Part shown: in pieces, positions 12,699 to 40,743 of the stretch | Layout of the letters: every line of letters starts with the position of its first letter | Numbering within the stretch: the first letter of the stretch is position 1 | Source: Bacillota bacterium | GTDB lineage: Bacteria > Bacillota > Clostridia > Lachnospirales > Lachnospiraceae | Length of the DNA stretch: 64,000 bases | NCBI GenBank assembly: GCA_029224465.1 | Contig: JAQXUQ010000031.1 | Location: 1 to 64,000, forward strand | Direction: 5' to 3' | The notes under the pieces: model-generated | Databases searched by the model: none | What the model saw: the letters and a program-made list of their open reading frames with translations, nothing else | What the model was told of the DNA's origin: nothing | Made by a program: the position numbers and the translations under genes

Positions 12699-12851
12699 TG
12701 CAAGAAGAGCTTCTTGCAAATTCCTGAATTTCATTGTTTTGCAAGAAGCTTCTCCTCTAATTTCAAGATTTCTTCTTGCATATTTCTGATTTTCCGCTTT
12801 CGCCAAGAAGCTCTTCTTGCAAATCCTCATATTCTTCGGTTTTGCAAGAAA
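12699..12851. repeat. Family B palindromic element, copy B1
   Basis: A 153-bp element carrying the heptamer GCAAGAA or its complement seven times in the order right-left, right-left, right-left, right. The first pair forms GCAAGAAGAGCTTCTTGC, a perfect short palindrome with a 2-base spacer. The whole element is also an imperfect palindrome. It is the first of three copies at 221-222 bp intervals. Confidence 0.85.
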
Positions 12852-12920
12852 TTGCCGCCCCGCAAGCCAAACCGCCGCCCCGGGCTTTTGGGTGCATTCT
12901 ATTCCGGACATTTCGCAGCC

Positions 12921-13072
12921 TGCAAGAAGAGCTTCTTGCAAATTCCTGGATTCCATTGTTTTGCAAGAAGCTTCTCCTCTAATTTCTAGATTTCTTCTTG
13001 CAAATTTCCGATTTTCCGCTTGCGCTAAGAAGCTTTTCTTGCAAATTCTCAAATTCTTCAGTTCTGCAAGAA
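12921..13072. repeat. Family B palindromic element, copy B2
   Basis: A 152-bp copy in the same orientation as B1, with small differences in the inter-box segments. The linker between copies (about 70 bp) contains CCCCGGGCTTTTGGGTG and TCGCAGCC and is itself repeated. Confidence 0.85.
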
Positions 13073-13141
13073 ATTGCCGCCCGTAAGCCGAACCGCTACC
13101 CCGGGCTTTTGGGTGTATTCTATTTGGGGCATTTCGCAGCC

Positions 13142-13293
13142 TGCAAGAAGAGCTTCTTGCAAATTCCTGAATTTCATTGTTTTGCAAGAAGCTTCTCCTC
13201 TAATTTCAAGATTTCTTCTTGCAAATTTCTGATTTTCCGCTTTCGCCAAGAAGCTCTTCTTGCAAATCCTCATATTCTTCGGTTTTGCAAGAA
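13142..13293. repeat. Family B palindromic element, copy B3
   Basis: A 152-bp copy nearly identical to B1. It is followed directly by an 18-bp GC-rich tandem repeat and then by the end of the alcohol dehydrogenase gene. Confidence 0.85.
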
Positions 13294-13294
13294 A

Positions 13295-13385
13295 TTGCCG
13301 CCCCTCAAGCCGAACCACCCGCCCCGCAAGCCGAACCGCCGCCCGCATGCCGAACCGCCCGCCCCGGGCCAGACTGGCTCTAAGC
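13295..13385. repeat. 18-bp tandem repeat just past the alcohol dehydrogenase stop codon
   Basis: About four imperfect units of CCGCCCCGCAAGCCGAAC-like sequence end a few bases from the dehydrogenase stop codon (minus strand, 13394). Confidence 0.6.
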
Positions 13386-13393
13386 CCACCGCC

Positions 13394-14605
13394 TTACCTG
13401 CTCGCCCTGTAAATCGCGAGCATATCCTCTTCCCGCAGCTTCTTTGCCGAGCCTGCGCAGCCGCCAACGCCTTCCGCGCACTTGCGTGCCATCTCCGCAA
13501 GCTGCCCGTCGGTCGCGTTCACGCCAAGTTCCCGCAGATTCGTCGGCATCTTGATCTCGCGGAAGAACGCTTCCATGTCTTCAATGCCCCGCAGTGCAAG
13601 CGCTTCATCGGCCTGCGTGCTTCCGGGCTGTCCGTCCGCCTGCACGTCCGGCCGCCTCTCGCCCATTACATTCACGGCAAACTTCACAAATCGCGGCAGG
13701 CAATCCTTATAGACATACCTTGCCCAGCTTCCCCAGATCGCCGCAAGCCCCGCGCCATGCGCGACATCAAACAGCCCGCCGATCTCATGCTCCAGCTTGT
13801 GCGTCGCCCAGTCTCCGCCGTCGCTCCCGCACCCGGTCAGCCCGTTATGCGACAGACTTCCGGCCCACATGATTTCCGCACGCGCGTCATAATTCTTCGG
13901 ATCTTTGACCAGAATCCGTGCGTTTTCCATTACCGTGCGCAGCAGCCCCTCCGCAAGCGCGTCGGTAATCTCCATCGTGCCGCTGCCATTGAAATACCGC
14001 TCCATCGTATGCATCAGAATGTCCGTGCATCCGCACGCGGTCTGATAATCCGGCAGCGTCATCGTCAGCTCCGGATTCATGACGGCAAATTTCGGCCGCG
14101 CGAAGTCACTGCTGTACCCGCGCTTGATCAGCCCCTCTTCCTTCGTGATGACGGAAGACGCGCTCATTTCGCTGCCCGTCGCCGCAATCGTCAAAACAAC
14201 GCCCACCGGCAAACACCCCTTGGCCTTCCTCTTGTAGTCGTAGAAGTCCCAGACGTCGCCTTCGTTGACGACGCCGTAGCCGATTGCCTTTGCCGAATCG
14301 ATGACAGAACCGCCGCCGACGGCGAGGATGAAGTCGATGTGGTTTGTTTTGCAGAGCTCAATTCCCTGATAAACCAGACTCAGCCGCGGATTCGGGACAA
14401 CGCCGCCGAGCGTCACATACGAAATGCCTGCCGCATGCAGCGAGTCCGTGATGCGCTGCAGGAGCCCCGAGCGGATGACGCTACCGCCTCCGTAATGAAT
14501 CAGCAGCTTTTTGCCGCCAAACTCCCGCACAAGATTTGCGGTCTGTGTTTCGGCATTTCTCCCGAAAACCACCTTCGTCGGTGTGTAATACGTAAAATCC
14601 AGCAT
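13394..14605 (-). CDS. Iron-containing alcohol dehydrogenase, NAD(P)H-dependent butanol dehydrogenase type
   Basis: A 403-residue group III alcohol dehydrogenase. The nucleotide site includes GGGSVIDSAKAIG, and TIAATGSEMSASSVIT follows. Metal ligands lie in GCTDILMHTMERY and in THKLEHEIGGLFDVAHGAGLA, which supply the Asp and three His of the family. It resembles BdhA/YqhD-like enzymes that reduce aldehydes to alcohols. An in-frame low-complexity insertion (RRPDVQADGQPGSTQADEA) sits in the C-terminal part. It is flanked by family B repeats on both sides and has no operon partners, so substrate is uncertain. Confidence 0.92.
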   Translation of the reverse strand: MLDFTYYTPTKVVFGRNAETQTANLVREFGGKKLLIHYGGGSVIRSGLLQRITDSLHAAGISYVTLGGVVPNPRLSLVYQGIELCKTNHIDFILAVGGGSVIDSAKAIGYGVVNEGDVWDFYDYKRKAKGCLPVGVVLTIAATGSEMSASSVITKEEGLIKRGYSSDFARPKFAVMNPELTMTLPDYQTACGCTDILMHTMERYFNGSGTMEITDALAEGLLRTVMENARILVKDPKNYDARAEIMWAGSLSHNGLTGCGSDGGDWATHKLEHEIGGLFDVAHGAGLAAIWGSWARYVYKDCLPRFVKFAVNVMGERRPDVQADGQPGSTQADEALALRGIEDMEAFFREIKMPTNLRELGVNATDGQLAEMARKCAEGVGGCAGSAKKLREEDMLAIYRASR

Positions 14606-14756
14606 CGTTTTCCTCCTGTTCTTCCATTTATTAACGAAGACAAACGTTCTACAATCAGCATATCACAAGCAGTTTCCGCCGAACAACGGTTCATTGCGGT
14701 TGTCATCCTGCAATGTGAATTTCTATTGACTTTTTAAGTCATTTTCTGGTTTGCAA

Positions 14757-14830
14757 GGCAGGACTTTCTACTGCCATTTCGTTTCATTTTTGCCAGGCAG
14801 GATTTTCTACTGCCATTTCGTTTCATTGAT
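14757..14830. repeat. 38-bp direct repeat upstream of the alcohol dehydrogenase
   Basis: Two copies of a unit containing GGCAGGACTTTCTACTGCC followed by ATTTCGTTTCATT, 38 bp apart. Each unit has a short GGCAG/CTGCC stem. Confidence 0.7.
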
Positions 14831-14834
14831 AAGC

Positions 14835-14988
14835 TTGCAAGAAGAGCTTCTTGCAAAATCTCGGATTTCTATGTTTTGCAAGAAGCCTCTTCTCAAATAT
14901 CCGGATTTCTTCCTGCAAATTTCCGAATTTCTGCTTTCGCTAAGAAGCTCTTCTTGCAAATTCTGCAATTCTTCGGTTTTGCAAGAAA
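14835..14988. repeat. Family B palindromic element, copy B4
   Basis: A 154-bp copy with the same seven-box order as B1-B3 but diverged between boxes. It lies between the alcohol dehydrogenase start and the end of the pilus operon. Confidence 0.85.
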
Positions 14989-15017
14989 TTGCCGCCTCGT
15001 GCGTCGAACATTCACTA

Positions 15018-15120
15018 CCGCACTACGCGGTTACTCCTCTACGGCACTACGCGGCCTACCGCTCCACCGCACTACGCGGCCGCTCCTCCACCGCACTATG
15101 CAACCTACTGCTCCACGCAC
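15018..15120. repeat. 24-bp tandem repeat overlapping the end of the pilus operon
   Basis: Four units starting at 15018, 15042, 15066 and 15091, of the form CCGCACTACGCGGCCTNCTCCTCCA. The last unit covers the stop codon of the sortase-like gene. Read on the minus strand, each unit carries TAG triplets. Confidence 0.75.
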
Positions 15121-15704
15121 TCCGCAACAAACCAGCCGCTCCCTTCCGGGCAGCAAAGATTCAAGATGGATGCGTTTTCTCCTTCCGGAAGCTGACCGGA
15201 AGTATAGACAGAATTGACCAGATAGGTTTTCTGACTACCGTATACATTGGTAAATACCACTTTGTCGCTTTCATTCACATCCGGAAGCCTGCCAAGCAGA
15301 CTGGCACGATTTTCTCCGGCAATCGAAAAGCTGCCGGATTTCCCGTTTCGATTGGCGATGTATACCATGGGATCGGGCGCCGTGTCTGCGGCCGCAACTG
15401 CGAGCTTGAGCCGCAAAGCCGGGATTTCCAGAATCCCGGTACAGTCAATCCCGCTGACAGAGACGACAGGAAACGTTTGGCTGGAGGCTGTAGAATACCC
15501 CGGACTGCTCGGAATCACTTTTTCCAGCGACGCACACAATTCTGCCTGCTTTTGCGCGATCCGGCGGTCATATTGTTTTCGTGTGTACAGGATGTATGCT
15601 CCGCCGATAACCATCCCCACTCCTGCCAAAACGAGCAGGAACCGGAACATCATCCGGATTCCTGCTCCCGCGTGAATTTTCTTTTGTTTTTTCTGATTAC
15701 TCAC
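15105..15704 (-). CDS. Sortase-fold protein lacking the catalytic His and Arg (pseudo-sortase)
   Basis: The protein is 199 residues from a GTG that overlaps the TGA of the upstream pilin gene (GTGA), with AGGA before it, so it is translationally coupled. A membrane anchor lies at about 20-40. The rest aligns with sortase landmarks: GILEIPALRLKLAV matches the GYVNIPKIGIELPV region, SIAGENRASLLGRLPDVNESDKV matches the HRG/DLDQLQEGD region, and ILNLCC matches TLVTC. The catalytic His is replaced by Glu/Asn (AGENR) and the Arg region reads SGWFVAEC, while Cys184 remains. It ends the pilus operon. It may assist pilus anchoring or regulate the true sortase; that is inference. Confidence 0.7.
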   Translation of the reverse strand: MSNQKKQKKIHAGAGIRMMFRFLLVLAGVGMVIGGAYILYTRKQYDRRIAQKQAELCASLEKVIPSSPGYSTASSQTFPVVSVSGIDCTGILEIPALRLKLAVAAADTAPDPMVYIANRNGKSGSFSIAGENRASLLGRLPDVNESDKVVFTNVYGSQKTYLVNSVYTSGQLPEGENASILNLCCPEGSGWFVAECVEQ

Positions 15705-16882
15705 TTTTTCCTGAACCCGATCATTCCATAAAGCACCAGTACTCCGCCGGAAACGATACATACCATCAGCCAGAGATTCATCCTCGCGTCATCACCGGTT
15801 CGTATCCCCGAAATAAACGAATGCAGATGACTTCCACCCGAAGTTGACGGGTGATTCTGGTCCGGAGGTGTTTGTTTTCCCGCGTCCGGCGGCGGTGTGG
15901 CCGACTTCCGGTTCGTCAGCGTAAACCACGTATGCGCCGCGCCGTCATTGTCTTTCCCGGTCGATGAAGTAATGCTTACCTTGTATTCCGCGCCGTCCGC
16001 GTTTCTGACCGCAGCGTTTTCGAGGACGCGGTATTCTGATTTGCCGTCGCCCGTCCAGCCCGCCGACCAGTTATTCGCATCTGAAAGCGTATAGGTTCCG
16101 GCAGCGTACCAGGCCCCATAAGAGCCAGAAGCATCAGCTTGCGGGTCCCTGCGATATACGGTCACAGCAATGCTCTCCGGCCTTCCGGCGCCCTGATCGT
16201 CCTGCCAGTACTTTGCCACCGAATATCTGCGCTGCTTTCCGCCTGACGGGACCGTCTCGGTGCTGTACTTTGCCTGTGCTTTCACATCATAGTCCCAGGT
16301 ATCGTCCGCTATGCCGGCCGCTTTCTGTCCTGCCGACGGCACCGAAACGAGTATCGGCGAAAAGGTGTACTTCTTCCCGTTTACCTCGCGGCTCGTGCCA
16401 AGCACCAGATACACGCCCGGCTTCAAGCCGGAGAAAACCGCTTTCCCGGCCGCGTCCGTCACCGCGGGCTTCTTCGCTTCATTCAGGCGCGGCGCATAAT
16501 TCTCCAGCGTCACAGCGTACGCGTCCCACTTGCCGGAGCCGGGATCAATTTTCTTGTCACCCGGAAGATCCGCGTTCAGCTTCTTCACATCCTCCGTCAG
16601 CACAAAATCCGCGCCGGCCGCCGTGAATTCCGCGATTTTATAAATGCGGAAAGCAAACCCGGCACCGCCGCTCATCGTTGCTGTGAGCGTGCCTTGTTTT
16701 GCCTGATCGACTGGCGTATACGCGGAGACCGGCAGAGACTGCGCAAGCAGCATCACAGGCAGCAGGAACGCCGCCATCACACCTGCCAGAACCGCGGACA
16801 GCCTGCGCATGACGGGAGTGCGGGGCGGTTTCGTGGCGGTTTTGTTTTGTCGTAATCCTGCAAAACAGATCCTTCTCATCAT
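15701..16882 (-). CDS. Minor/anchor pilin with Cna-B domain
   Basis: A 393-residue secreted protein with a long positively charged N-terminus and a signal helix ending near SLPVSAYT. A pilin-like domain follows (FRIYKIAEF, then SGLKPGVYLVLG). A Cna-B-type domain spans about 218-330 (SVAKYWQDDQGAGRPESIAV, ending HTWFTLTNRK). Next come a Pro-rich stalk, a variant sorting signal IRTGDD, a hydrophobic segment and an RKK tail. The degenerate signal instead of LPxTG suggests it is joined to the pilus base or to the cell wall by a different sortase. It lies between the class C sortase and the pseudo-sortase genes. Confidence 0.82.
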   Translation of the reverse strand: MMRRICFAGLRQNKTATKPPRTPVMRRLSAVLAGVMAAFLLPVMLLAQSLPVSAYTPVDQAKQGTLTATMSGGAGFAFRIYKIAEFTAAGADFVLTEDVKKLNADLPGDKKIDPGSGKWDAYAVTLENYAPRLNEAKKPAVTDAAGKAVFSGLKPGVYLVLGTSREVNGKKYTFSPILVSVPSAGQKAAGIADDTWDYDVKAQAKYSTETVPSGGKQRRYSVAKYWQDDQGAGRPESIAVTVYRRDPQADASGSYGAWYAAGTYTLSDANNWSAGWTGDGKSEYRVLENAAVRNADGAEYKVSITSSTGKDNDGAAHTWFTLTNRKSATPPPDAGKQTPPDQNHPSTSGGSHLHSFISGIRTGDDARMNLWLMVCIVSGGVLVLYGMIGFRKK

Positions 16883-16897
16883 TCTAAACTCCTGACA

Positions 16898-17788
16898 TTA
16901 AAGTTCGTCGGCGGTATCCTTTTTCCGATGCATCCCGGTAAATAGCAATATCCACAGCAGCGCGAGCAGCAATACCGGCAAAGCAATCACCGGCACGACA
17001 TACCTCGGATCAATCCGCACCGCGTCGGCGCTGACCGGCAGCTCCGTCTCCGATGCCTCCATGCGATGCCCGCGCACGAGCAGCCGGTGCGTGTTGACAC
17101 CATACGGTGTGCAGGTCACAAGCGTACAGTAATCTTTGTCGGGATCGATTGCGAGGTCACTCAGTTCATCCGGCAAAACAATCCTGATCTGATCCACCTC
17201 ATACACCAGCGTCCGGTTTAATACCTGCAGTTGGAACGTGTCGCCTTCCTGCAGCTGGTCAAGGTCCGTGAAAAGTTTTGCGGACGGCAGCCCGCGGTGG
17301 CCGGATATCACGCAGTGCGTTCCCTTGCCGCCGACCGGCAGCGACGAGCCTTCGATATGACCGATCGCAATTTCGAGAACCGCCGGGTCCGTTCCGTGAT
17401 AAACCGGCAGCTCAATGCCGATCTTCGGAATATTCACATAGCCCATAATACCGGTTCCGGTAACGTTGAGCGTGCGCTCGTACTCCGCCTTCTCTTCGTC
17501 GGTCAGCAGAAAACGGTCGCCCGATTTCTTCGAAAGCTTCTCATTGTAGGCGCGGGCGGCGGACCAGAGGGCGTCGCTGTTTTGCCGGGTCATGTCGGAT
17601 ACCTGCTCGACATAGCCCGCGATCGCGCGCGACTGATGCATGTCGTTCCACCAGTCCGAGAAGGTCGGGTAGGCCATCATGACGACGCCGATTACAACGA
17701 CCGCCGCCAAAAGAACATCCATCGCGATCGATACCCGTCTGCGCCAGTCCGGCTTTTTATGCTGCTGTTCTCCTTTGTTTTCTCTCAC
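16898..17788 (-). CDS. srtC: Class C (pilus-polymerising) sortase
   Basis: A 296-residue sortase with membrane segments at both ends (about 20-40 and 263-285), the class C topology. The catalytic triad is intact: His164 in SGHRG, Cys226 in TLVTC and Arg235 in NTHRLLVRG. TPYGVNTHR is the class C signature. The usual lid motif (Asp-Pro-aromatic) before the NIPKIGI strand is not evident, so this may be a lid-variant enzyme. It joins LPSTG-bearing pilin subunits through Lys. It lies between the major pilin and the anchor pilin. Confidence 0.94.
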   Translation of the reverse strand: MRENKGEQQHKKPDWRRRVSIAMDVLLAAVVVIGVVMMAYPTFSDWWNDMHQSRAIAGYVEQVSDMTRQNSDALWSAARAYNEKLSKKSGDRFLLTDEEKAEYERTLNVTGTGIMGYVNIPKIGIELPVYHGTDPAVLEIAIGHIEGSSLPVGGKGTHCVISGHRGLPSAKLFTDLDQLQEGDTFQLQVLNRTLVYEVDQIRIVLPDELSDLAIDPDKDYCTLVTCTPYGVNTHRLLVRGHRMEASETELPVSADAVRIDPRYVVPVIALPVLLLALLWILLFTGMHRKKDTADEL

Positions 17789-17858
17789 AATTCGTCTGGG
17801 ATCGTCCTTTCATCCCCGGGAAGGACCTGGCGCCGGCTTTCCGTTCCAGATGCTTCCC

Positions 17859-17891
17859 GGAGATGAAGGGTGTCTTGCATCCTTCATCTCC
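17859..17891 (-). promoter_or_regulatory. Hairpin between the major pilin and sortase genes
   Basis: A perfect 11-bp stem (GGAGATGAAGG / CCTTCATCTCC) with an 11-base loop, about 30 bp past the pilin stop codon and without a T-run. It probably acts as an mRNA-stabilising or processing element that lowers sortase relative to pilin output. Confidence 0.5.
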
Positions 17892-17922
17892 TGATTGAAT
17901 GATCATTCTTGAAAACGCTGTG

Positions 17923-19470: not shown

Positions 19471-19497
19471 AAGAGTTTCCCCCTTGTTCAGCGGTAT

Positions 19498-19520
19498 CCG
19501 CCCGATGTTTTATCGGGCGG
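19498..19520 (-). promoter_or_regulatory. Stable 5' leader stem of the major pilin mRNA
   Basis: A perfect 9-bp stem CCGCCCGAT / ATCGGGCGG with a 5-base loop, about 30 bases before the pilin ATG and without a following T-run. A 5' stem of this kind often protects a processed, highly expressed transcript. The rest of the 231-bp gap to the adhesin gene (19521-19701) shows no gene and no recognised riboswitch. Confidence 0.5.
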
Positions 19521-19701: not shown

Positions 19702-22700
19702 TTATAGTGAACCACCCCCTTTTCCCACTTTCCTGCTGATCAACAATTTCCTCGCTATAAGTGTTGTCCCTGCGAAAAGCAGAAGAAGTGCTCCTGTCCC
19801 TATTAAAGGCAGCGTTCCGTTGCTACCGGTGGAAGGCAGGGTATAGGAAGAATCTTTCTGGTTGACAATTGCCTGACCATCTTCAGCGTATTTCAAATCC
19901 TGACCGGCTACTATGGATTCATCTGTATTTAATGCCCTGTATTTCGGTTCCATGTAACCGTTTACTTTTCCATCCTCCTTGACGAAATAATGCCAGCTTC
20001 CTGTGCATGTTTGATCTCCTTTATTTACTGTTCCAACAGAAGGTAATCCGGAAATCAAGTAGCTATTCTTACCGTCCTTTGTCAATAATTCGCAGTCAGG
20101 ATAGGAATTATTATGTTTAGTAACTTTGCTGGTAGTAAGTGTATATGTTGCATAAGCAGTTGCGTTCTCCAATACCTCCTTATTATTACCAAGCAACTCA
20201 CGATACAAAGTTACTTGAATTGATGTTCCAGATGGCCATTCTTGTTCAACGGTCCCATCACTCCATATCTTCGTGAATTTCAGTTTCTGTTCCTGACTGT
20301 TGGTAATCGTTCCTCCGTTACCCACTTCCTGTTTATCTGGAATGTATCCGGTTGCCGACGATACCTCTTTCACAGAATAGGATATTTCTTTCCCGCTTTG
20401 ATCATATTTATTAAGTTTTGTAAAATTCGCCTGCCATGCCGGGGATTCGTATTCGTCCTCTGTGCCATCCAGAGTGATTTTCTTCCCTGTTGGATTACCA
20501 TTTTGCAATAGTTCGAAAGTGCAGGAAGCACCGGCAGGCGGAGTGTTTGTTCCATCCGAATTTACCCATGCTTTCTTTGCAGAGATCGACTCTTCTTCCC
20601 GGGTGTTGGTAACAGTTAACGTTCCTTTTTGAATCTTTCCATTATTACTCGAATATGATGTTGTATATCCTGTGACTGAACCCTCCTCTACCCAGTAGTA
20701 ATATTTATTTCCGTTTTCATCGTCTAAGTTAAGCGGACCTACAGTAATACTATTCTTATTACTGCTATTCAGATCATAACTTCCGATTATTTCTTTCTGT
20801 CCAGCATCTTTGTACTGATCTGTTGGGGTGTACAGGAGGTCCTTGTAAATTTTATCCGGTGGATATGAAACATATACTGAATAAGTGGTGTCCTCTTTTG
20901 GACTTCCCAACGCAATGGTATGATCTTTGTTGTTGTTGAACGTTATAGGTGTACCGTTATCTACTATGTACTGCTCATTATATTTTGAACGTACAGACAG
21001 GGCTACTTCCGTATCACTCTTGATATAAACCTCATTATGATAAAGTTCATTATGCCATTCCCGATTAGTCCAGACCTCCACAGTTACTTTCACCCCGCCG
21101 GGCTTGCGCGCCTGTCTGTATAAAGTAACATGTGCTGTTCCGGGATTAGCGTCATCTGTATGATCCGCGTTCAGCCATACTTTGTCGATTCTGATTCCGG
21201 TCTTTTCATTCGGGACATAAATCGTGCCGGAAGTACGAATGATGTTAACTTCCTCCTGTGTTACCCCGGAATGATCATATTGAGGAACCTCACTCCATAT
21301 CTCCCAGTCAGATTTCGACTCCGATTCAAATTTTGCCCAGACAAAATAATATGGCTTGTTATTCAAGGAATAGGCATTGTTGGTGCCTAGGTTCGTCTCG
21401 GTAAGCTTATATAAGACTCCTTCTTCGAGTTTGTCATCAATTTTATTCAGATGAATTTGACCATTTTCATTTGTGGAAGCTTCCTTTATTGTCCTCCAGA
21501 CTGCTGCATTATTCTCATAGCCTTTATACTCCTCGAGTTTAAACGTTACTCCCTGTAATTTGATGTTGTAGTTTTCACTGTCAACTTTATATAGGTCAAG
21601 CTCCTTTCTGGATACCGTTGCTCCCGCTGTACTCTCAGCAAGCGCAAGTTTATTCTCAATGGAAGACTCCGCGACTCCGGAAAGTCTGGCCGAATTACTC
21701 AGCTGCGTAGCATTAATTCCCGGTGTCACACAGTACTCGTAATACACCACGCAAGGAACCTCATCCGGAAGCGTCAGGGTGAGTGTATGGGTCTTTTCCT
21801 CATAGGAGAATCCATATCTGTTCGGGTCAATGAGAGCTCCGCAATGGTTCTCTCCTGCTGCATCATATGCATAAACCTTCAGCGAAGCAGGCTGAAAGTC
21901 CATTTGCACATCCTTATCTCCTGATGTCAATTGATCCTGAAGTGTCAGGGTATCAGAACCTTTGACCAGATCTTCACCCTTCGGATTGACAGGGAGATAA
22001 TAAATCGCTTTTTTTACTCCTTTAACTCCCTCAACATCCGACAGCTGTCCGATCTTATCCAGCTTCTTAATCGTATGTTTGACATTTGTTGTAACGTCAG
22101 AAGTCAGATTTCCCCTTTGAACTGTGTTGGAATAGGGCTTCATTTCATTACGAATATCATTCCAGAATTGTCTATCCTCAATCGTCGCAGTATAGTAGAA
22201 CGCAATGCGGTAAGAATCCGTATAGGGTCTCTCATATCCATCAGACAAGGTGAAAGTAACTTTAGTTGTTCCATCCTTCTGGTTTTCTTCCGTTTTTGTT
22301 GTCACATGATCAGCTAATTTAAAATGCCAATCACCATTAAAGCCGCTCAGATCTTCACGTTGATCGTAATCATTTTCATAATAAACAACTTTTGTAAGTT
22401 TCCCAAACTTCATGCCGGAAGGAAGAGTATCAACAATCGTCTGTTCTCCTCCGGATTCTTTATTCAAGCGGATCAACACCCTGTAATACAGTATCATCCC
22501 GTTCTCAGAATATTCGATTTCCGGATCATTACAGGAATACGAAGTATCCGTGCCGCTGGTACTAACCTGTTTCGTCAGATCTCCATCCGGCTTTTTGCGA
22601 TCGTATTTTACCTCCGATTCATGGTTCGGAATGGCTGCTTTATTCTTGAAGGTCCATGTTGAACCATCTGGCTGACCATCTTCATCAACAATAGTGTCAT

Positions 22701-25700
22701 ACTCGAGAGAAATATTTTTATGTCCTTTAAGCGTAGAAAGCGATGCATCCAGAAACTGAATCTGAAAACCAGTCAGCCTAGTATTGTCATCCATTTTGCT
22801 GATATCAGATCCGGCAAGATCTAACAGTTTGTAATCTGTCCCATATTTCAATTTGTCGTTATTCTCTGTCCAGAGCATAAGCTCCTTAAGCAGAGCCGGA
22901 GTTGTGTAATGCCTTTCTGAAAGTGAGGTACTCCCATCCCATGCAGTCATCGTGTCTGTATAGAGAAGCTTTGAGAGATCAAGATCGCTTTCAGGAAGGT
23001 CAATTCTTGCCGTCCACTTGATTTTTTCTCCTGTTTCCGTCTGGTCATCGGTCCTGGAATACCACTTTGTGACATTATAAGTAGGATGGGATATGGTAAT
23101 CTCTCCTGATTCGCCGGTATACTCCTTGCCATGGTTGTTATAGGTAACTTTGTTCTTTACCCTCGATGAAGTTCCCTCATTTCCCTTAGGCGCAGATGTT
23201 TCATACTCAATTTTATATTGCTCTCTTGAATATCCGGATGGAAATGTATAGTAACCATTTGCATCGAACGATCCTGTTCCTACCTGCGTGCCGTTTCCAT
23301 CTTTAATGATAAAACTAAGCGGAAAAGTAATGTTAGATCCATCCCCCTCCGTTACAGTAAATACATCCTTCAGCGTTGTTCCGGCCAGATCCTGCTTATC
23401 TGGATTGTTAACAGTGATCGTCCATTTCAGCTTTCCAGTCTGATAATCCTGATACCCCTCTTTTCTTACAACCGGTTCATGAATGGTTGTCGTTGTATTA
23501 CCCCAGCCGGTGACATGACTATTCCATGCGCAGCAGTTGTTCGAAACGGAGGCGCTTCCGTCTGAAGACGTGATATTTCCTTCTACAGGGACTTCATAAA
23601 TCACATGATACTTATCTCCAGCCTGTAATTCCGGTAGATTGTCTATTTCAAGTTTCCCGTCACTAACTATAGGGGTTAAACCGCTGACGCCATGCTGCTC
23701 ATCATTTCGATAGACCCAGACCTTGCCCGTATCATAATTCGGAACATTGATACCGGACGCAGTCATGGAGTCAGTAAACCGAATGTCACCATCTGTACCT
23801 TTCGTCGTGGAGATCGTCACCTCATAGCGGATATAATGCTTCCCATCCTGATCTGTATAATAGCGTCCCGTTTTTTGTGTAGAAATATCATATTGATCCG
23901 TTGTTGTCTTAGGCTGAATAGTTACATGCGCATTAGCCCCAAAGTCGACGGTCACCGGATTATCAGAATTTGTATTATGTGCCGTACCTGTAAATTTAAG
24001 GCTTCCCTCAAAGGCTTGGGAAACATTATAGTCCTCGTTCAGGCTAAGTGTTATTGTCCCATCCGGACTAGCCGACATTGTCCCTATCTTTTGGCCTTTT
24101 TGTATCGCATCGCCCGTGGTCAATTCGCTGACGCCAATATATTGTGGATCCATTTTATAGGTCAGTACTTCGCCTTTATTCAGCTTTCCGCTTTCCACTT
24201 TATAATTCAGTACAAATAATACATTGTCTCCATCTTTGATATTACTATTCGGATTCCATTTTCCGTTCCCATCCTTCGTATACGTTGTTACCGAGGTGAT
24301 ATAATTTCCCAACTTATTTTCCTGCTCATCCTTCACCTCCACCTCATACCTGCTTCCATCTTTCATGCCGATGGTAAGCTTCTCAGTAGACGTAAACGGC
24401 TTCCTGCTCTCCAGCTCCCAGTCCCCGTCCTTCTTCGTCACGGTCACAAGGCTGCTGTCGGAGAAGGTAACGTCATCGACATCCGCGATATCAAAATCTT
24501 TGTCCTGCTTTGTGTCGCGCAGACCGAGCTGGTCCGCCAGCGCCGACAGCAGGATGCTGCTGCCGCCCCGGATCGAATACGTATACCCGCTGAAAGTAAA
24601 ATCGACCGTATAAACGATGGCATAAACCGAGAAAGCATCGGATTCGAAGGAAACGGTGTCGGCGCCGTTTGTTTTGCCGGCGACAACGTCCGCGCTGCCC
24701 TCATTGTCAACATGCACAACATGCGCTTTCTCCGCAATGTCCAGAACATCCGACACCATCCTCACCCGAATCGGCTTCGCCGGCTCGACCGCGGTGCCGT
24801 CCTTCTTTATGAACTTGATGTCAACAGCCGCTGCCGCACCTTTTCCGCCGGCCGCGCGGATCGCCCGGTCCAGCACATCCTGATTCGTGACCGCCGCGAC
24901 GGTCATCGTTGTTCCTTCTTCGAACGTTCCCTCGTCCGCGTCCACCAGCACCCGGACGCTGCCGTTTTCCGTCGCTGCCTTTTCATCAAACGAAACGGCG
25001 GGCATCGGCACTTCTTCTTTGGAGACAGTCTCGGTCACCGTCTTCCGCACAATCTGCGCCAAAACAACACCCTCCGGCAGCTCCCCCGCAAACGCGGCTT
25101 TGGTGCAGGCGCCGGTGCTATCTGTGGACAGCGTTACAGAGTCTTCGTTGGTGATGTCGTTCAGGCTGCTTCCGGAAAATGTGTAAATCTTCCATGAAGT
25201 CTCATATTTTGTCGTTCTGGCGACGGTCGTGCCATTGCCCGCAGTCTGCTCCTCTTTGGATGCATAGCCGGCATCATTCAGACCGTCCGTAAATTCAGCT
25301 GTGAATCTGATTTCTCCGTCCACGTAAGCATCGCTGCCGTCTTCATTCTCCGGCGCCAGCTGCAGGGCATGGAACCCCGCAATGCTGAAAGTCGTGCTGT
25401 CTGTATCATTCTGTGACACCAGATCTCTGAGCGAGCGCTCTGCTGCCGCAGAATCACTGTCATCAAAGGCTTCCGCAGAAAGTGTCATTCCCGCCGGAAA
25501 AGCATTCCCGTCCGCACGCACCGCCGCAATCCTCATACGGCTGTCTTCAAAGGCAAGTTCCGACTGCGTAGCTGCTTCTTCCCCGCCTGCATTTTCTGTG
25601 ATTTCTTCTTCCGAATCAGCGGCGTCCGCTTCGGCAGTCGTATTCTCCAGCGCAGCATTCGAATCGGCATTCTCATCCGTCCGTGCGGCGGCATCCGGAT

Positions 25701-26151
25701 CGGCATTCTCATCCATCCGTGCGGCAGTGTTCAGATCGACAGACTGCGCGTCCGTCCGGCTTGCGCCCTGCTCTGTACGCTGTTCTGCAGCCTGTCCGGC
25801 GGTCTGCGCGCCGTTCTGACTGTCATCCTGCGGCGCAGAAATGTTTTCCGTCTGCATAGAATTTTGCGCATCGGCCTGATTCTGTTCATCAGCCTGATTC
25901 TGTGCATCGCCGATAAGCTGATCTTCCTTCGTTAGAGAATCAACCGGAGCGGCTGCGGAGGCGGCGTCCTGCATGTTTTGCACGACTTCTCCGGAAGTAT
26001 CCTCCGTCAGCGCCGTCGCCGGGCTCGCCAAAATCGTCGAAGTAACCAGCACTGCCATCAGACTCAGCACCAGCAGGAGTCTGCGTCTGTTTCTGCGTTT
26101 TTTGTTCCGGCTCAGTCTGTCTCGAATTTCATGATTCAGATCAGCATTCAT
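19702..26151 (-). CDS. Giant cell-surface adhesin / pilus tip protein
   Basis: A 2149-residue protein. An extended N-terminus with a basic stretch and signal helix ends near SPATALTED. An acidic Ala/Asn/Asp/Gln-rich region to about 200 holds short repeats such as ADPDAAARTDENAD. Long tandem immunoglobulin-like domains follow. At least three C-terminal Cna-B-type units begin at KVWLNADHTDD, KAWVNSDGTNT and KIWSDGTVEQ. LPSTGS at 2105 then precedes a membrane helix and a basic tail. This is the usual design of a sortase-anchored pilus-tip adhesin. No Cys-Gln thioester motif was seen. The target ligand is unknown. Confidence 0.88.
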   Translation of the reverse strand: MNADLNHEIRDRLSRNKKRRNRRRLLLVLSLMAVLVTSTILASPATALTEDTSGEVVQNMQDAASAAAPVDSLTKEDQLIGDAQNQADEQNQADAQNSMQTENISAPQDDSQNGAQTAGQAAEQRTEQGASRTDAQSVDLNTAARMDENADPDAAARTDENADSNAALENTTAEADAADSEEEITENAGGEEAATQSELAFEDSRMRIAAVRADGNAFPAGMTLSAEAFDDSDSAAAERSLRDLVSQNDTDSTTFSIAGFHALQLAPENEDGSDAYVDGEIRFTAEFTDGLNDAGYASKEEQTAGNGTTVARTTKYETSWKIYTFSGSSLNDITNEDSVTLSTDSTGACTKAAFAGELPEGVVLAQIVRKTVTETVSKEEVPMPAVSFDEKAATENGSVRVLVDADEGTFEEGTTMTVAAVTNQDVLDRAIRAAGGKGAAAAVDIKFIKKDGTAVEPAKPIRVRMVSDVLDIAEKAHVVHVDNEGSADVVAGKTNGADTVSFESDAFSVYAIVYTVDFTFSGYTYSIRGGSSILLSALADQLGLRDTKQDKDFDIADVDDVTFSDSSLVTVTKKDGDWELESRKPFTSTEKLTIGMKDGSRYEVEVKDEQENKLGNYITSVTTYTKDGNGKWNPNSNIKDGDNVLFVLNYKVESGKLNKGEVLTYKMDPQYIGVSELTTGDAIQKGQKIGTMSASPDGTITLSLNEDYNVSQAFEGSLKFTGTAHNTNSDNPVTVDFGANAHVTIQPKTTTDQYDISTQKTGRYYTDQDGKHYIRYEVTISTTKGTDGDIRFTDSMTASGINVPNYDTGKVWVYRNDEQHGVSGLTPIVSDGKLEIDNLPELQAGDKYHVIYEVPVEGNITSSDGSASVSNNCCAWNSHVTGWGNTTTTIHEPVVRKEGYQDYQTGKLKWTITVNNPDKQDLAGTTLKDVFTVTEGDGSNITFPLSFIIKDGNGTQVGTGSFDANGYYTFPSGYSREQYKIEYETSAPKGNEGTSSRVKNKVTYNNHGKEYTGESGEITISHPTYNVTKWYSRTDDQTETGEKIKWTARIDLPESDLDLSKLLYTDTMTAWDGSTSLSERHYTTPALLKELMLWTENNDKLKYGTDYKLLDLAGSDISKMDDNTRLTGFQIQFLDASLSTLKGHKNISLEYDTIVDEDGQPDGSTWTFKNKAAIPNHESEVKYDRKKPDGDLTKQVSTSGTDTSYSCNDPEIEYSENGMILYYRVLIRLNKESGGEQTIVDTLPSGMKFGKLTKVVYYENDYDQREDLSGFNGDWHFKLADHVTTKTEENQKDGTTKVTFTLSDGYERPYTDSYRIAFYYTATIEDRQFWNDIRNEMKPYSNTVQRGNLTSDVTTNVKHTIKKLDKIGQLSDVEGVKGVKKAIYYLPVNPKGEDLVKGSDTLTLQDQLTSGDKDVQMDFQPASLKVYAYDAAGENHCGALIDPNRYGFSYEEKTHTLTLTLPDEVPCVVYYEYCVTPGINATQLSNSARLSGVAESSIENKLALAESTAGATVSRKELDLYKVDSENYNIKLQGVTFKLEEYKGYENNAAVWRTIKEASTNENGQIHLNKIDDKLEEGVLYKLTETNLGTNNAYSLNNKPYYFVWAKFESESKSDWEIWSEVPQYDHSGVTQEEVNIIRTSGTIYVPNEKTGIRIDKVWLNADHTDDANPGTAHVTLYRQARKPGGVKVTVEVWTNREWHNELYHNEVYIKSDTEVALSVRSKYNEQYIVDNGTPITFNNNKDHTIALGSPKEDTTYSVYVSYPPDKIYKDLLYTPTDQYKDAGQKEIIGSYDLNSSNKNSITVGPLNLDDENGNKYYYWVEEGSVTGYTTSYSSNNGKIQKGTLTVTNTREEESISAKKAWVNSDGTNTPPAGASCTFELLQNGNPTGKKITLDGTEDEYESPAWQANFTKLNKYDQSGKEISYSVKEVSSATGYIPDKQEVGNGGTITNSQEQKLKFTKIWSDGTVEQEWPSGTSIQVTLYRELLGNNKEVLENATAYATYTLTTSKVTKHNNSYPDCELLTKDGKNSYLISGLPSVGTVNKGDQTCTGSWHYFVKEDGKVNGYMEPKYRALNTDESIVAGQDLKYAEDGQAIVNQKDSSYTLPSTGSNGTLPLIGTGALLLLFAGTTLIARKLLISRKVGKGGGSL

Positions 26152-28446: not shown

Positions 28447-28451
28447 AATTT

Positions 28452-31025: not shown

Positions 31026-31100
31026 TCTGCCCCGTCTACACACAGCTTTCGATACAATACACCGCCCACACGCACTCTGCATTCAAACTGCAAGACATTT

Positions 31101-32828: not shown

Positions 32829-32840
32829 AATGGTGCTCCT

Positions 32841-34673: not shown

Positions 34674-34834
34674 AGCAACCTTCCTTCAATAGAATAGAAT
34701 CCGGTTTCCTACCGGCAGCATAACAAAGAGGCAAAGCGGCAGCAGCCGTGTGTTCTGCTGCCGCCTGCCGTAGATTTTCTTCCTGCAGGGTGCATGCGGC
34801 GCGCGGCGCCGGACACACCCGTGGTCTCCGGGTA

Positions 34835-36277: not shown

Positions 36278-36423
36278 AATTCATTACCTCCCGATACATT
36301 GATTATGGATTGACCTTCTGATGAGCAATACCCCTATATTTCTCATCGTCCACAATGCAAGTTTAGTCGGTTTTACCGAAATTATGAATGGATTGTACTG
36401 ACTTTTTATGTATTATTCTGACA

Positions 36424-37197
36424 TTATGCCTTTTCCTGATACTCGCTGGGTGACATTCCCGTCATTTTGCGAAAAGTGTTTGAAAAATATCCGACATCCT
36501 GATACCCCGCGCACCTTGCGGCTTCCGACACGCGGCAGTGTACATCACGCAGCAGACGCATCGACACGCGGATTCGGAACGTCGTCACGTAGGTCGAAAC
36601 ACTCATCCCGGTATCCTTCTTGAACAGGCGCGAAAGATGTCCTTCCGAGATGTCCAGCGCCGCCGCGACCGTGCTGATGCTCACGTTCTCTTCCTTGTAA
36701 TGCTCTTCGATATACCGGATTGCGGAACGCACATAACGGTTCATGGATGGATTCTGTGTGACCAGTGGCAGAAGCCTGCCGTCCCTTTCTTCCCGTTCCT
36801 CCTGCGCAGCATTTGCATTCTCCGCGCTCTGCGGGCTCGTGATTCTTCTGATCGCGGACTCCAGCTGTCCGTCCGCAAACGGCTTCAGGATATAATCGAC
36901 TGCACCGAGCCGGAGTGCTTTCTGAATATAGGCAAAATCACTGTATGCCGTAAGAAATATAGTCTTTACCGCGATTCCCCGTTTCCGCAGCTGCATGGTC
37001 ATATCGAGTCCGTCCATCAGAGGCATGCGGATATCGCAGATGACAAGGTCCGGGTGTCTCGCCAGAATCAGATCGAAGCCGCTTTTCCCATCTGCAGCTT
37101 CTCCAACGATGCGGCATTCCACGCTCTCCCAGTCGGTATTATGAATGATCCCCTGACGGACATGCATTTCATCGTCGATGACAACAACATCGTACAT
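36424..37197 (-). CDS. AraC-type response regulator of the ABC importer
   Basis: A 257-residue two-domain regulator. The receiver domain (1-120) holds the acidic pair VIDDE, phosphoacceptor VICDIRMPLMDG and a Lys in YILKPF. A short linker leads to an AraC DNA-binding domain (VSISTVAAALDISEGHLSRLFKKDTG, then CAGYQDVGYFSNTFRKMTGMSP). It is divergent from the binding-protein/histidine-kinase pair, with only 66 bp between them, and upstream of the importer operon. The layout matches three-component systems in which this protein activates the transporter genes. Confidence 0.93.
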   Translation of the reverse strand: MYDVVVIDDEMHVRQGIIHNTDWESVECRIVGEAADGKSGFDLILARHPDLVICDIRMPLMDGLDMTMQLRKRGIAVKTIFLTAYSDFAYIQKALRLGAVDYILKPFADGQLESAIRRITSPQSAENANAAQEEREERDGRLLPLVTQNPSMNRYVRSAIRYIEEHYKEENVSISTVAAALDISEGHLSRLFKKDTGMSVSTYVTTFRIRVSMRLLRDVHCRVSEAARCAGYQDVGYFSNTFRKMTGMSPSEYQEKA

Positions 37198-37218
37198 GGC
37201 AGTTTCCCCGCTTTCGCA

Positions 37219-37253
37219 TTGTTCCTTTTATTGTAGCACGGTAAAATGTGCTA
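37219..37253 (+). promoter_or_regulatory. Promoter and overlapping operator for the sensor binding protein
   Basis: TTGTTC (37219-37224), a 17-bp spacer and TAAAAT (37242-37247) form a good promoter. The inverted repeat TAGCAC-N8-GTGCTA (37234-37253) covers the -10. The ATG at 37264 is only about 10 bases past the expected start, so the mRNA would be nearly leaderless. No Shine-Dalgarno is visible, consistent with that. Confidence 0.55.
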
Positions 37254-37263
37254 TTCTTGAATC

Positions 37264-38376
37264 ATGAAATCCGTATCGAATAAAAAGTTAATCTTTTTCA
37301 TGATCGCATCCGCTGCGCTGATTGCCGGTTGTGCGTCGTCAGAGCAAGTCTCCGTTATGCCTCCTTCCGACGAGCAGCGGCTTGTCATCTACACTGCTCA
37401 TAAGGAAGAAGTCTATCGGCCTGTCATCGAAGAGTTCGAGGATCAGACGGGGATCTGGGTCGATGTGCAGGCAGGTGGAACCACGCAGATGCTGCGCAGG
37501 ATCCGGCAGGAGCAGTCTGCGGTCACTTCCAGCAAAACGTCGCGGTCCGCGGTCACTTCCGGCAAAACATCCCCCGCCGACATCATGTTCGGCGGCGGCG
37601 CGGAGAATCTGGAGGCGTATCGGGATTGTTTTGCCCCGTATCATTCACCGCTCGAAGGCAGTATCAGTTCCTCTTTCCGCTCCCCCGACGGTACATGGAC
37701 GCCTTTCACGGAGCTGCCGATCGTCTTCATCTATAACAGCAAACTTGTCGCGCAGCAAAACGCGCCGCGCAGCTGGAAGGATTTCTTGGACGGCAAATGG
37801 AGCGGTCAGATCAGTTTTGCCGATCCTCAGAAGTCAGGAACCAGTATCACGATTCTGGAAACGCTCAAGCTTGTGAATGACACGCAGGGCTGGGGAATGC
37901 GGGAGGAAGAGGTGCTTTCGCAGTTTGCGGAACAGCTCGGCGGACATCTGGCTGCCGGCTCCGGAGATGTGCCCGGAGAAGTGGCATCCGGTACCCGTAT
38001 GGTCGGTATCACGCTGGAAGAAACCGCGCTGAAGTTCATGGCGGGAGGCAGCGATATCGGCATGATTTATCCGGAGGAAGGGACAAGCGCAGTTCCGGAC
38101 TGCGTCGCGATTGTGCGATCTGCGCCGCACGAAGCGAACGCAAAACGCTTTGTAGACTTTGTTATTGACCGTCCTGTTCAAAAATACACGGAAACCAATC
38201 TCTTCCGCCGTTCGATACGTACAGATGTGCATGAGACAATTCGCGGCACAAACGGACTTTCAGAACAAGACACCGGTACGCTGCACATTCTGCCGTTTGA
38301 CGTACCCGGTGCAAGCGAAGACGGTCATGACATGCTCGAAAAATTTCTTTCGTACATGCGGCAGGAGAATGCATGA
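37264..38376 (+). CDS. Sensor-associated extracellular binding lipoprotein (HptA/PgtC-like)
   Basis: A 370-residue lipoprotein (lipobox IAGCA) with the class II binding-protein fold of the iron/phosphosugar family: RLVIYTAHKEEVYRPVIEEFE, WVDVQAGGTTQML, and the later MIYPEEGTSAVPD. It is not in the importer operon. It overlaps the histidine kinase start by four bases (ATGA), so it is probably the extracellular ligand sensor for that kinase, as HptA is for HptS. An in-frame duplication (SAVTSSKTSRSAVTSGKTS) lies near residue 82. The ligand is unknown; phosphorylated sugars are the best guess from the architecture. Confidence 0.82.
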   Translation: MKSVSNKKLIFFMIASAALIAGCASSEQVSVMPPSDEQRLVIYTAHKEEVYRPVIEEFEDQTGIWVDVQAGGTTQMLRRIRQEQSAVTSSKTSRSAVTSGKTSPADIMFGGGAENLEAYRDCFAPYHSPLEGSISSSFRSPDGTWTPFTELPIVFIYNSKLVAQQNAPRSWKDFLDGKWSGQISFADPQKSGTSITILETLKLVNDTQGWGMREEEVLSQFAEQLGGHLAAGSGDVPGEVASGTRMVGITLEETALKFMAGGSDIGMIYPEEGTSAVPDCVAIVRSAPHEANAKRFVDFVIDRPVQKYTETNLFRRSIRTDVHETIRGTNGLSEQDTGTLHILPFDVPGASEDGHDMLEKFLSYMRQENA

Positions 38377-40154
38377 AAATTCGCAGCTACATTCAGAAAT
38401 CTTATAAGCGGCAGCTGCAGCTGTACTTTATTACCTCTTCGGTTATTCCGATCGCGGTCAGCGGGTTCCTTCTGGTAGGCTTGTTCCGGTATCAGGCGGA
38501 AAAGGATTTGTCGAAACAGGATCTGCGCAGACAGAATCAGATTGCAGCGATTCTCTCGGATGCTTTCACGCTTGCCGAAAACGGAATCCGGGAAGTCGCG
38601 GAAGATCCGGATATCGCATCTGCACTGCGGAGCGGCAAGGTGCAGTCGCACAATGTCTACGCTGCTTTGTACCGGAAAACCGGCAGGCTGCGGAACTTTG
38701 CAACGGCAGACATCTATTCCGGCGGAAAGCGCATCTACTCGACAGGCAGCGGTACCGAGAGCCGGACCCTTCCGACGGACTTCGGCATTCTGGCAAAAGC
38801 CCGGGAATCAAAGGGCAAAGTCGTGTACCGGGCCGGTTACGCAGGAGACCTTGCAGCAGACAGTTCTCTGAATACAGCGCAAAGCAGCCGCCGCGAACCC
38901 TGCATTCAGATTGCCGGTCAAATTCAGGAAAATGAAGGGTATGCCGTCGTCACGATCCGGAAAGCAGGGCTGGACCTGCTCCTGCAGGGTTCCTATGGAG
39001 CGGATGAAGGTATTCTTGTGATGAACCGTTTCTGGGAGCCGGTATACAGTGCGGGCGCTCTCGCGGATCCGGACGCGGCTTCGCTGTTCCGCAGGAATCT
39101 GCTCTCCGCGCAGCCGGTTCGGCAGGATTATCCCGACAATTTCTACAGTGTCCCGATCGGCGGCACCGGACTGACGCTTGTGTATATGACAGCGCCTGCT
39201 TTATCTCCGGGCATCTTTCATTCTCTGCTGAATGTTGTTTTGTTCTTCTGTGTGCTGATGATTCCTCTGGGACTTCTGTTTGCAAATTATATGTCCCGGT
39301 ATCTGTCCCGGCCGATTGCAGAACTCGGTGCCGCGATGCGCAGCTTCCGGCACGGCGACATGAACGCGCAGGTACATATGGACCGCGATGATGAGCTGGG
39401 GCTTCTTGCGGAAGGGTTCAACAAAACGACGGTGCGTCTGCGCGAAAACATAGAAGAACAGATTCGCCAGCAGAAGCATCTGAACGAGACTAAAATCCGG
39501 ATGCTGCAGGCGCAGCTGAATCCGCATTTTCTTTACAACACGCTCGACACCATCAAGTGGGTCGGCATAGAGCATCAGGTTCCGGAAGTGGCGCAGCTTG
39601 CGCAGAATCTTGCCGGTCTTCTGCGTCAAAGCATCTCGAACCGTCAGTTTATCACGCTCTCGGAAGAGCTGGACATGGTCGAAAACTACTGCAATATTCA
39701 GGAGTTCCGGTTCGGATATTCCTTTTCTTACGAATGTGAGGTTCCGGAGGATCTGATGGGCTGCATCGTGCCCAAGCTGATCCTGCAGCCGGTTGTGGAG
39801 AACGCGATCATTCACGGCCTCGAAGGCGTAGAGGACGGACTGGTAAAGGTAAGTGCGGCGCGAAAGCCGCACCGATGTGCAGGCGAAGCGGATATTGACG
39901 GGGCCGGCGCGCCGCAGGACGACTTGGAAATTATTGTCATCGACAACGGCCGCGGAATCAGCGACAAAATGATTGATATTCTTGACCGGCATGATGCCGG
40001 TCAACTCTCCGGACATCTCGGCTTCCGGAACGTGGATACGATTCTGCGTATGTTCTATGGCGATTCCTATGGGATTCATGCTTCGCGCCGCGAAGAAGGC
40101 GGGACGCAGGTTTCACTGCTGTTGCCGGCGACCTGCGCCATGATAAAAGAGTAA
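38373..40154 (+). CDS. Sensor histidine kinase of the three-component system
   Basis: The protein has 593 residues. An N-terminal helix (about 15-37), an extracytoplasmic sensor to about 275, a second helix, then HAMP (YMSRYLSRPIAELGAAM), the phosphorylation motif QLNPHFLYNTLDTIKW, and a HATPase domain (ENAIIHGLEG, DNGRGIS, GHLGFRNV). A GC-rich in-frame segment (AARKPHRCAGEADIDGAGAPQ) interrupts the HATPase domain. It is translationally coupled to the binding protein by an ATGA overlap, and its partner regulator is encoded divergently. It probably reads the occupancy of the binding protein. Confidence 0.92.
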   Translation: MKIRSYIQKSYKRQLQLYFITSSVIPIAVSGFLLVGLFRYQAEKDLSKQDLRRQNQIAAILSDAFTLAENGIREVAEDPDIASALRSGKVQSHNVYAALYRKTGRLRNFATADIYSGGKRIYSTGSGTESRTLPTDFGILAKARESKGKVVYRAGYAGDLAADSSLNTAQSSRREPCIQIAGQIQENEGYAVVTIRKAGLDLLLQGSYGADEGILVMNRFWEPVYSAGALADPDAASLFRRNLLSAQPVRQDYPDNFYSVPIGGTGLTLVYMTAPALSPGIFHSLLNVVLFFCVLMIPLGLLFANYMSRYLSRPIAELGAAMRSFRHGDMNAQVHMDRDDELGLLAEGFNKTTVRLRENIEEQIRQQKHLNETKIRMLQAQLNPHFLYNTLDTIKWVGIEHQVPEVAQLAQNLAGLLRQSISNRQFITLSEELDMVENYCNIQEFRFGYSFSYECEVPEDLMGCIVPKLILQPVVENAIIHGLEGVEDGLVKVSAARKPHRCAGEADIDGAGAPQDDLEIIVIDNGRGISDKMIDILDRHDAGQLSGHLGFRNVDTILRMFYGDSYGIHASRREEGGTQVSLLLPATCAMIKE

Positions 40155-40173
40155 GCAAATCCTTGTTCTCGCG

Positions 40174-40302
40174 GCGCCCGCGCCACAGCATGCCCTGCCT
40201 CCTGCCTCTCTGTGGGCGCCCCGCAACATCTTGCTCTGCTCCTTCCCTCTCTGCGGGCGCCCCGCAATATCTTGCTCTGCTCCTTCTCTCTGCGGGCGCC
40301 CC
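40174..40302. repeat. 41-bp tandem repeat after the sensor kinase
   Basis: Units start at 40174, 40215, 40256 and 40295, with the form GGCGCCCCGCAAYATCTTGC followed by TCTGCTCCTTCCCTCTCTGC. The last unit runs directly into family B copy B5. Confidence 0.75.
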
Positions 40303-40454
40303 GCAAGAAAGACTTCTAGCAAAATCCGGAATTTCTGAAATTTGCAAGAAGAGATAGCACCACAGGCAGTAATTCTTCTTGCAAATTGTTTGAAATCTTT
40401 TCTCGCGAAGAAAGGCTTCTTGCAAATCCGGGAAATTTTCGGTTCTGCAAGAAA
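40303..40454. repeat. Family B palindromic element, copy B5
   Basis: A 152-bp element with the same seven-box GCAAGAA order and spacing as copies B1-B4, though the sequence between boxes has diverged. One box reads CTTCTAGC. Confidence 0.82.
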
Positions 40455-40590
40455 TGAAAAGCAAGTGAGAGCACGCCTGCGCTGACAGCTTGTTCTCGCG
40501 GCGCCCCGCCAAGGCATCCCCTGCTCCTTGCCTCTCTGCGAATTCCCCCGTAACATCTTGCTATGCTCCTTCCCTCTCTGCGGGCGCCCC

Positions 40591-40743
40591 GCAAGAAAGA
40601 CTTCTTGCAAAATTCGGAATTTCTGAAATTTGCAAGAAGCGATTGGCTCGCTGGAAGTGATTCTTCTTGCAAATAGTTTGAATTCTTATCTCGCGAAGAA
40701 AGGCTTCTTGCAAATCCGGGAAATTTTCGGTTCTGCAAGAAAT
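40591..40743. repeat. Family B palindromic element, copy B6
   Basis: A 153-bp copy 288 bp after B5 and very similar to it, including downstream flank AAATGAAAAGCAAGTGAGAG and the following GCGCCCCGCC segment. B5 and B6 look like a local duplication. Confidence 0.82.

Follow-up and report, generated by a model that had tools for sequence, protein, structure and literature searches.

A 64,000-nucleotide stretch of a Lachnospiraceae genome (assembly GCA_029224465.1, contig JAQXUQ010000031.1, positions 1 to 64,000, hereafter the window) contains six copies of an intergenic element, each spanning exactly 151 base pairs (bp) and each built from seven short boxes in alternating orientation. The element belongs to a family found in this genome and in one sister species. 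Length and box positions are held across the family, the letters between the boxes drift, insertions and deletions are depleted relative to the flanks, the boxes are spaced near whole turns of the helix, and the copies lie behind the ends of genes. Judged from the sequence, the element is most likely a DNA-level, helically phased array of putative protein-binding sites, a reading in which our confidence is middling. We infer a sequence-specific protein, wrapping of the DNA and a role as a boundary.

Results

Architecture of the element

The element consists of six good boxes and one weak box. The boxes begin at offsets 0 (+), 11 (-), 41 (+), 73 (-), 103 (+, degenerate), 114 (-) and 144 (+), which in copy 1 (12700-12850, plus strand) places them at 12700+, 12711-, 12741+, 12773-, 12803+ (the degenerate CCAAGAA), 12814- and 12844+. 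The other five copies, at 12922-13072, 13143-13293, 14837-14987, 40303-40453 and 40591-40741 (all plus strand), have identical offsets, so that the span from box 1 to box 7 is 151 bp in 6/6 copies. A first-pass annotation of the window had recognised these six copies and their common length and box order, and it was right on both counts. It gave the length as 152-154 bp; the constancy is real, and the figure is 151 bp measured box to box, the larger values including one to three edge bases.

The annotation had also counted seven GCAAGAA boxes. Six of these are good, with mean matches of 93-99% over 14 copy groups, and box 5 is degenerate at all loci except one (71%). The mean match at control offsets (n = 70) is 37%, with a largest value of 53%. 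Single mismatches are found in box 2 of the copy at 40303 and in box 4 of the copy at 14837. GCAAGAA has 47 occurrences in the window where 13.2 would be expected, and 100 shuffles gave at most 23; by manual count 34 of the 47 matches fall inside the six elements. A 37-bp unit, TTCTTGCAAA-N17-TTTGCAAGAA, recurs within each element: in copy 1 it covers boxes 2-3 (12711-12747), boxes 4-5 (12773-12809, weaker) and boxes 6-7 (12814-12850). The imperfect palindrome earlier ascribed to the whole element spans boxes 1-6 around a centre at offset 60 and leaves box 7 outside.

The six window copies are in part duplicates of one another. Copies 1-3 are tandem duplicates with a unit of 221-222 bp and 87-95% identity, copy 4 is 85-86% identical to them, and copies 5 and 6 come from a tandem duplication of 288 bp (91% identity). 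The window therefore contributes just two or three independent groups, and independence comes from the genome-wide set.

A family with fixed spacing and drifting sequence

To collect copies we used a profile of sequence alone (R1), derived from 16 of them, with BLAST as a second route; both permit gaps. In the source genome (G000, 2.55 Mb) the profile detects 16 complete copies plus one truncated at the end of a contig; BLAST recovers the same loci, some only partially. The copy that ends contig C5 duplicates sequence at the start of C29, and the two count as one. Three partial matches at 14-17 bits (on C17, C22 and C10, the last overlapping a copy of the second family described below) were left out of the count.

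Two of 62 genomes of the genus carry the family (E 0.01): the source genome and a sister species (G032, 87% complete) with 10 copies. The full copies of the two species number 26, of which 24 are 151 bp long and two are 150 bp (G32_C23 and G32_C20b), and none of the full-length matches in either genome departs further from this length. Wider searches of 397 genomes of the family (E 0.001) and 392 of the order (E 0.0001), with the best seven candidates per genome, gave strong matches in the source genome only; the sister genome was absent from these matches, and searches of this breadth may therefore overlook copies that are few or diverged. In five other genomes of the family, weak matches of 21-23 bits resemble, by eye, coding sequence and in one case a tandem repeat. 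A plasmid or phage origin was rejected, as blastn gave no match to 0.01, and a single match to the 37-bp pattern in one viral contig was taken as chance.

Sequence is conserved in the boxes far more than between them. Across 15 of the 16 full source-genome copies, mean pairwise identity is 92% in the boxes against 53% between boxes. Distant copies are 51-74% identical; closer pairs are C31a-d (85-99%), C31e-f (90%), C19-C4a (97%) and C4b-C21 (82%). Nine orthologous pairs from the two species allow the boxes, spacers and flanks to be compared directly. Substitutions affect 11/433 box positions (2.5%), 130/894 spacer positions (14.5%) and 432/2105 positions of the 150-bp flanks (about 20%; left 207/1075, right 225/1030). 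Gap openings are rare inside the elements, with one real case, and common in the flanks, with 107 (55 + 52). On these counts the spacer letters change nearly as fast as the flanks, and the element length hardly moves. The claim that length and box positions are kept more than sequence, first made on the window copies, holds genome-wide and across two species.

Helical phasing of the boxes

The pseudo-dyads between adjacent boxes lie at offsets 8.5, 29, 60, 91, 111.5 and 132. By offset arithmetic, the pitches between them are 20.5, 31, 31, 20.5 and 20.5 bp, or 2, 3, 3, 2 and 2 turns at about 10.3 bp. Constant spacing of half-sites near whole helical turns, together with largely free letters in the spacers, would be expected of a phased protein-binding array, and both are present here.

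The base composition follows a related pattern. At offsets 28-30, 91-92 and 131-132 the A/T content reaches 98-100% with no constant letter, and the 17-bp interior of each 37-bp unit has A or T at its centre in nearly all copies. The 10.3-bp A/T signal is stronger than expected from permuting the spacer columns, with 0.15% of 2000 permutations reaching it. A phased array bound by a bending protein would be expected to leave such a pattern, which falls short of proof.

Position, islands and inheritance

The elements lie behind genes. Wherever both sides of a slot are visible (13/13), the element is faced by the 3′ end of one gene or more; five slots are convergent, seven are tandem, one has an uncertain left gene and none is divergent. 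The slot genes were taken as the longest open reading frames (ORFs), most but not all of which have a Pfam match, and some lie about 0.6-1.1 kb from the element. In the window, the right neighbour of copy 3 is the 3′ end of an iron alcohol dehydrogenase gene (13394-14605, minus strand). Copy 4 is flanked by the 5′ end of the same gene and by an ORF with weak similarity to sortases (15105-15761, minus strand, below the Pfam cut-off), whose 3′ end faces it. Copy 5 lies between convergent histidine kinase (38373-40154, plus strand) and glycosyltransferase (40866-42419, minus strand) genes. Short tandem repeats with units of 39 bp and 49 bp adjoin copy 4 at 14743-14820 and 15017-15114. Elsewhere in the window, at 19702-26151, is a minus-strand ORF of 2149 residues.

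Copies 1-3 sit in a repeat-rich island of 825 bp (12536-13360) that is absent in the sister species, where the flanks meet directly. Copies 5-6 sit in another of 711 bp (40157-40867), which is represented by about 19 bp in the sister species. Apart from the elements, the islands are GC-rich repeats. Nine of the ten sister-species copies share their gene slot with a copy in the source genome; for one of the nine, truncated at the end of a contig, a single side is visible. At the C21 slot, the sister species carries a copy of a different repeat, the second family. A 445-bp block is common to copies C19 and C4a at 93% identity and contains one second-family element as well. The shared slots and the island comparisons indicate a family that is mostly inherited in place, with whole islands gained or lost.

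This history bears on the strongest competing explanation, that the element is a non-autonomous mobile element resembling a miniature inverted-repeat transposable element (MITE). A transposase or recombinase supplied in trans would bind the boxes, and the constant length would be that of one ancestral element. The first-pass annotation had offered this possibility, and our data lend it weak support: dispersed copies are confined to two genomes of the genus, whole islands of the source genome are missing from the sister species, and a block containing the element stands at two places. The shared gene slots speak for inheritance instead. Empty sites do exist, but what was inserted there exceeds the element, and no target duplication was seen by eye at the two islands or the copied block. 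Both ends of the element carry a box in the same orientation, so it has no terminal inverted repeats of the MITE kind. A dead mobile element would be expected to gain insertions and deletions about as fast as its flanks, and this element does not. Neither carrier genome has a match to Y1 transposases, the one transposase family covered by this search. We regard a mobile origin as unlikely.

Tests for an RNA fold and remaining alternatives

A structured RNA or 3′-untranslated-region element, in which pairs of boxes would form hairpins that act, for example, as a bidirectional terminator or mRNA stabiliser, was another early suggestion. Adjacent boxes are complementary, the element follows gene ends, and RNAalifold gives a consensus energy of -20.6 kcal/mol. 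The covariation term of that fold is 0.06, however, and 2/26 predicted pairs have some sequence changed on both sides. None of the box pairs changes on both sides, whether paired as 1-2, 3-4 and 5-6 or as 2-3, 4-5 and 6-7. Spacer arms within a copy pair no better than arms taken from unrelated copies: for each of the three units and for the middle, the observed value is lower than the mean of the null. An inner palindrome in C31a, C31b, C3, C27a and C30 had seemed compensatory by eye; it failed the arm-pairing test. Orientation relative to genes is mixed, with four elements in the same and three in the opposite direction in seven tandem slots. Terminator-like sites are not above chance in the two regions compared (2 and 1, against 3.7 and 1.9 in shuffles), and Rfam returns no match in the window at the gathering score. 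An RNA element is improbable on this evidence. The original proposal of selection on structure had named an RNA fold or a multimeric binding protein, and it is the protein that is favoured.

Plain local duplication of junk repeats, with length preserved through youth or homogenisation, is very improbable. Tandem copies in the window and GC-rich repeats in the rest of the islands speak for it. Distant copies have equal length in spite of their divergence, and conserved boxes with unconserved spacers are seen between species as well; the comparison of boxes, spacers, flanks and gaps in orthologous pairs largely refutes this explanation. Least probable of all is a REP/BIME-type element that a Y1 (RAYT) transposase would mobilise, also raised in the annotation: intergenic, regularly spaced units in alternating orientation are BIME-like in the terms of PMC2817692, yet PF01797 has no match in either carrier (the sister genome being 87% complete) and is present in 44/62 genomes of the genus, and the alignment has no conserved columns of a GTAG/TGTGG-type head beside the palindromes. 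A transposase since lost, or encoded in the missing 13% of the sister genome, would escape this search.

A second family and alternating arrays in other genomes

The window also holds a second palindromic family of fixed length, built on CTATGCAATA/TATTGCATAG boxes whose positions are nearly constant, as are those of an inner CAAGAC/GTCTTG pair. Its copies lie at 5699-5872, 6619-6799 and 6863-7043, with a partial copy at about 5974-6060. The family occurs in at least 38 places in G000 and at least 24 in G032, among the best 43 candidates scored per genome, with no match in the 60 other genomes of the genus; it shares the host range of the seven-box family, because the same two genomes carry both. 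Its pitch of 66.5 bp misses a 5.2-bp lattice by 0.21 step, and 5.1 fits better. Some of its GC-rich arms appear compensatory by eye.

Alternating boxes are also found in some other Clostridia. A scan of 98 loci of other genomes (1.36 Mb, a non-random sample) for repeated inverted 8-mers picked out ten bins, spread over nine loci; one block-shuffled control yielded none. Two loci have alternating TGCCGTA arrays, L065:2307-2603 (12 boxes) and L074:2420-2663 (10 boxes), with a dyad pitch of 26 bp (25.5-26). By eye, these two arrays differ by about one 52-bp period. Genome G457 has four alternating arrays of TTCAACAGA boxes (L260:8264-8442, L261:7910-8250, L262:133-350 and L263:7790-8140), again with a 26-bp pitch (25.5-26.5 between good boxes), which equals 2.5 turns. 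Spacers of the G457 arrays have little similarity to one another: 35% for inner spacers, where shuffling gives 25%, and 29% for linkers, where it gives 27%. ORF calls place two of these arrays between convergent genes and one in a tandem slot, and the fourth has a single neighbour in its stretch; in two of the arrays, boxes with two mismatches yield extra, irregular pitches.

A TTACACC/GGTGTAA array at L116:6820-7172, between convergent ORFs, has pitches near 21.5, 26 and 31.5 bp and two others. Two pitches, 30.5 and 23.5, arise from an extra box with one mismatch and were omitted when the lattice was tabulated; other pitches of this array miss the 5.2-bp lattice by up to 0.19 step. By ORF calls, the alternating arrays of other genomes adjoin gene 3′ ends. 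L118 and L069 proved to be ordinary repeat arrays. Stretches of 20 other genomes of the genus (204,744 bases, many of them short contigs) held no alternating-box cluster.

Discussion

The element may work as a DNA scaffold, in which seven half-sites of the TTTGCAAGAA type, alternating in orientation, are set in phase with the helix over a total length that does not vary. A putative sequence-specific protein would contact adjacent half-sites as dimers or as a larger oligomer, and would probably bend or wrap the DNA, as the A/T-rich centre of each 37-bp unit suggests. Placement after gene 3′ ends, often between convergent genes, suggests that the array likely acts on the chromosome itself. Candidate roles are an anchor in the nucleoid or a boundary that limits supercoiling or read-through transcription. 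A boundary role at gene ends is the most likely use, and we propose it tentatively. New copies could arise through local tandem duplication and the occasional copying of larger repeat blocks, and would then be retained through selection on spacing.

Several observations weigh against a phased protein-binding array. The strongest A/T period in the 8-14 range is 8.6 rather than 10.3, and there is no A/T enrichment at the middle dyad (offset 60). The flanks are an imperfect control: many are GC-rich repeats whose alignment is partly unreliable, which may inflate the count of flank gaps, and three of the 150-bp flanks are free of gaps (with 4, 10 and 12 substitutions), so the contrast is strong and not uniform. 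The C2b locus and its sister copy have weaker boxes, mostly with 4-6/7 matches except for box 5. The profile used to collect copies was itself built from 16 copies of the same length, though both it and BLAST allow gaps. The near-invariance of the boxes leaves little room for covariation to appear. No binding protein was found, and no search aimed directly at one was made. Finally, the arrays with 26-bp pitch in other species may be unrelated to this family.

We suggest that the 26-bp arrays and the seven-box family may form one class. In its full form this is a possibility that we put forward with caution: some Clostridia, including this Lachnospiraceae lineage, would share an undescribed class of intergenic arrays with alternating boxes on a half-turn lattice (dyad pitch about 20.5, 26 or 31 bp) and free spacers, situated behind gene 3′ ends. 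The box sequence would differ between lineages, its reader being a DNA-binding protein that forms oligomers and evolves fast, and the arrays would mark boundaries of chromosome organisation or transcription. The window family would be a fixed seven-box member of this class, and the CTATGCAATA family a sister kind.

If the phased-array reading is correct, the element would represent a kind of intergenic repeat whose information is its spacing along the helix, and not its sequence or an RNA fold. It would predict one protein covering 151-bp stretches behind genes. Free spacer letters and lineage-specific box letters would explain how such repeats escape RNA-family and homology searches. The family would also make boundaries of transcription or DNA topology accessible to study in gut bacteria that form a large and mostly uncultured group.

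The first-pass annotation knew of no described family with this architecture. Our search of the open-access literature agrees, finding none in a body of papers from which subscription journals are mostly absent. BIME and REP sequences are frequently found at gene ends. PMC2817692 describes REP/BIME units as intergenic, multi-copy, species-specific and palindromic, with regular spacing and alternating orientation, and mentions complementary mutations in REPs; PMC2267715 reports that PU-BIMEs interact with gyrase and IHF. Both systems are intergenic, multi-copy and built from alternating, regularly spaced units. They differ in that the present element conserves boxes of 7-10 bp, where BIME/REP sequences have palindromes of 20-40 bp, and in its free spacer letters, held spacer length, lack of a detected Y1 transposase and lack of compensatory changes. 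Despite the similar layout we do not file the element as a BIME, because two defining features, the Y1 transposase and the GTAG-type head, were looked for and not found.

ERIC, as described in PMC2267715, is an intergenic imperfect palindrome of 127 bp with about 20 copies in E. coli, predicted to form a single long stem-loop. The two share a fixed size, an imperfect palindrome and multiple intergenic copies; the present element is made of seven short boxes with no sign of selected folding, whereas ERIC is a predicted long stem-loop.

The arrays of half-sites bound by Lrp and the res sites of resolvases consist of several inverted half-sites at whole-turn spacing within 110-150 bp. The seven-box element has the same kind of inverted, putative half-sites at whole-turn spacing. 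Those, however, are single regulatory or recombination sites, and this element is dispersed in about 17 copies at gene ends. The Clostridia arrays with 26-bp pitch (L065, L074, G457 of L107 and partly L116) resemble it in their short alternating boxes, constant pitch and position at gene 3′ ends. Their boxes are TGCCGTA, TTCAACAGA and TTACACC, their number of units is open-ended, and their pitch is 26 bp, in contrast to the 20.5 and 31 bp of the fixed seven-box element.

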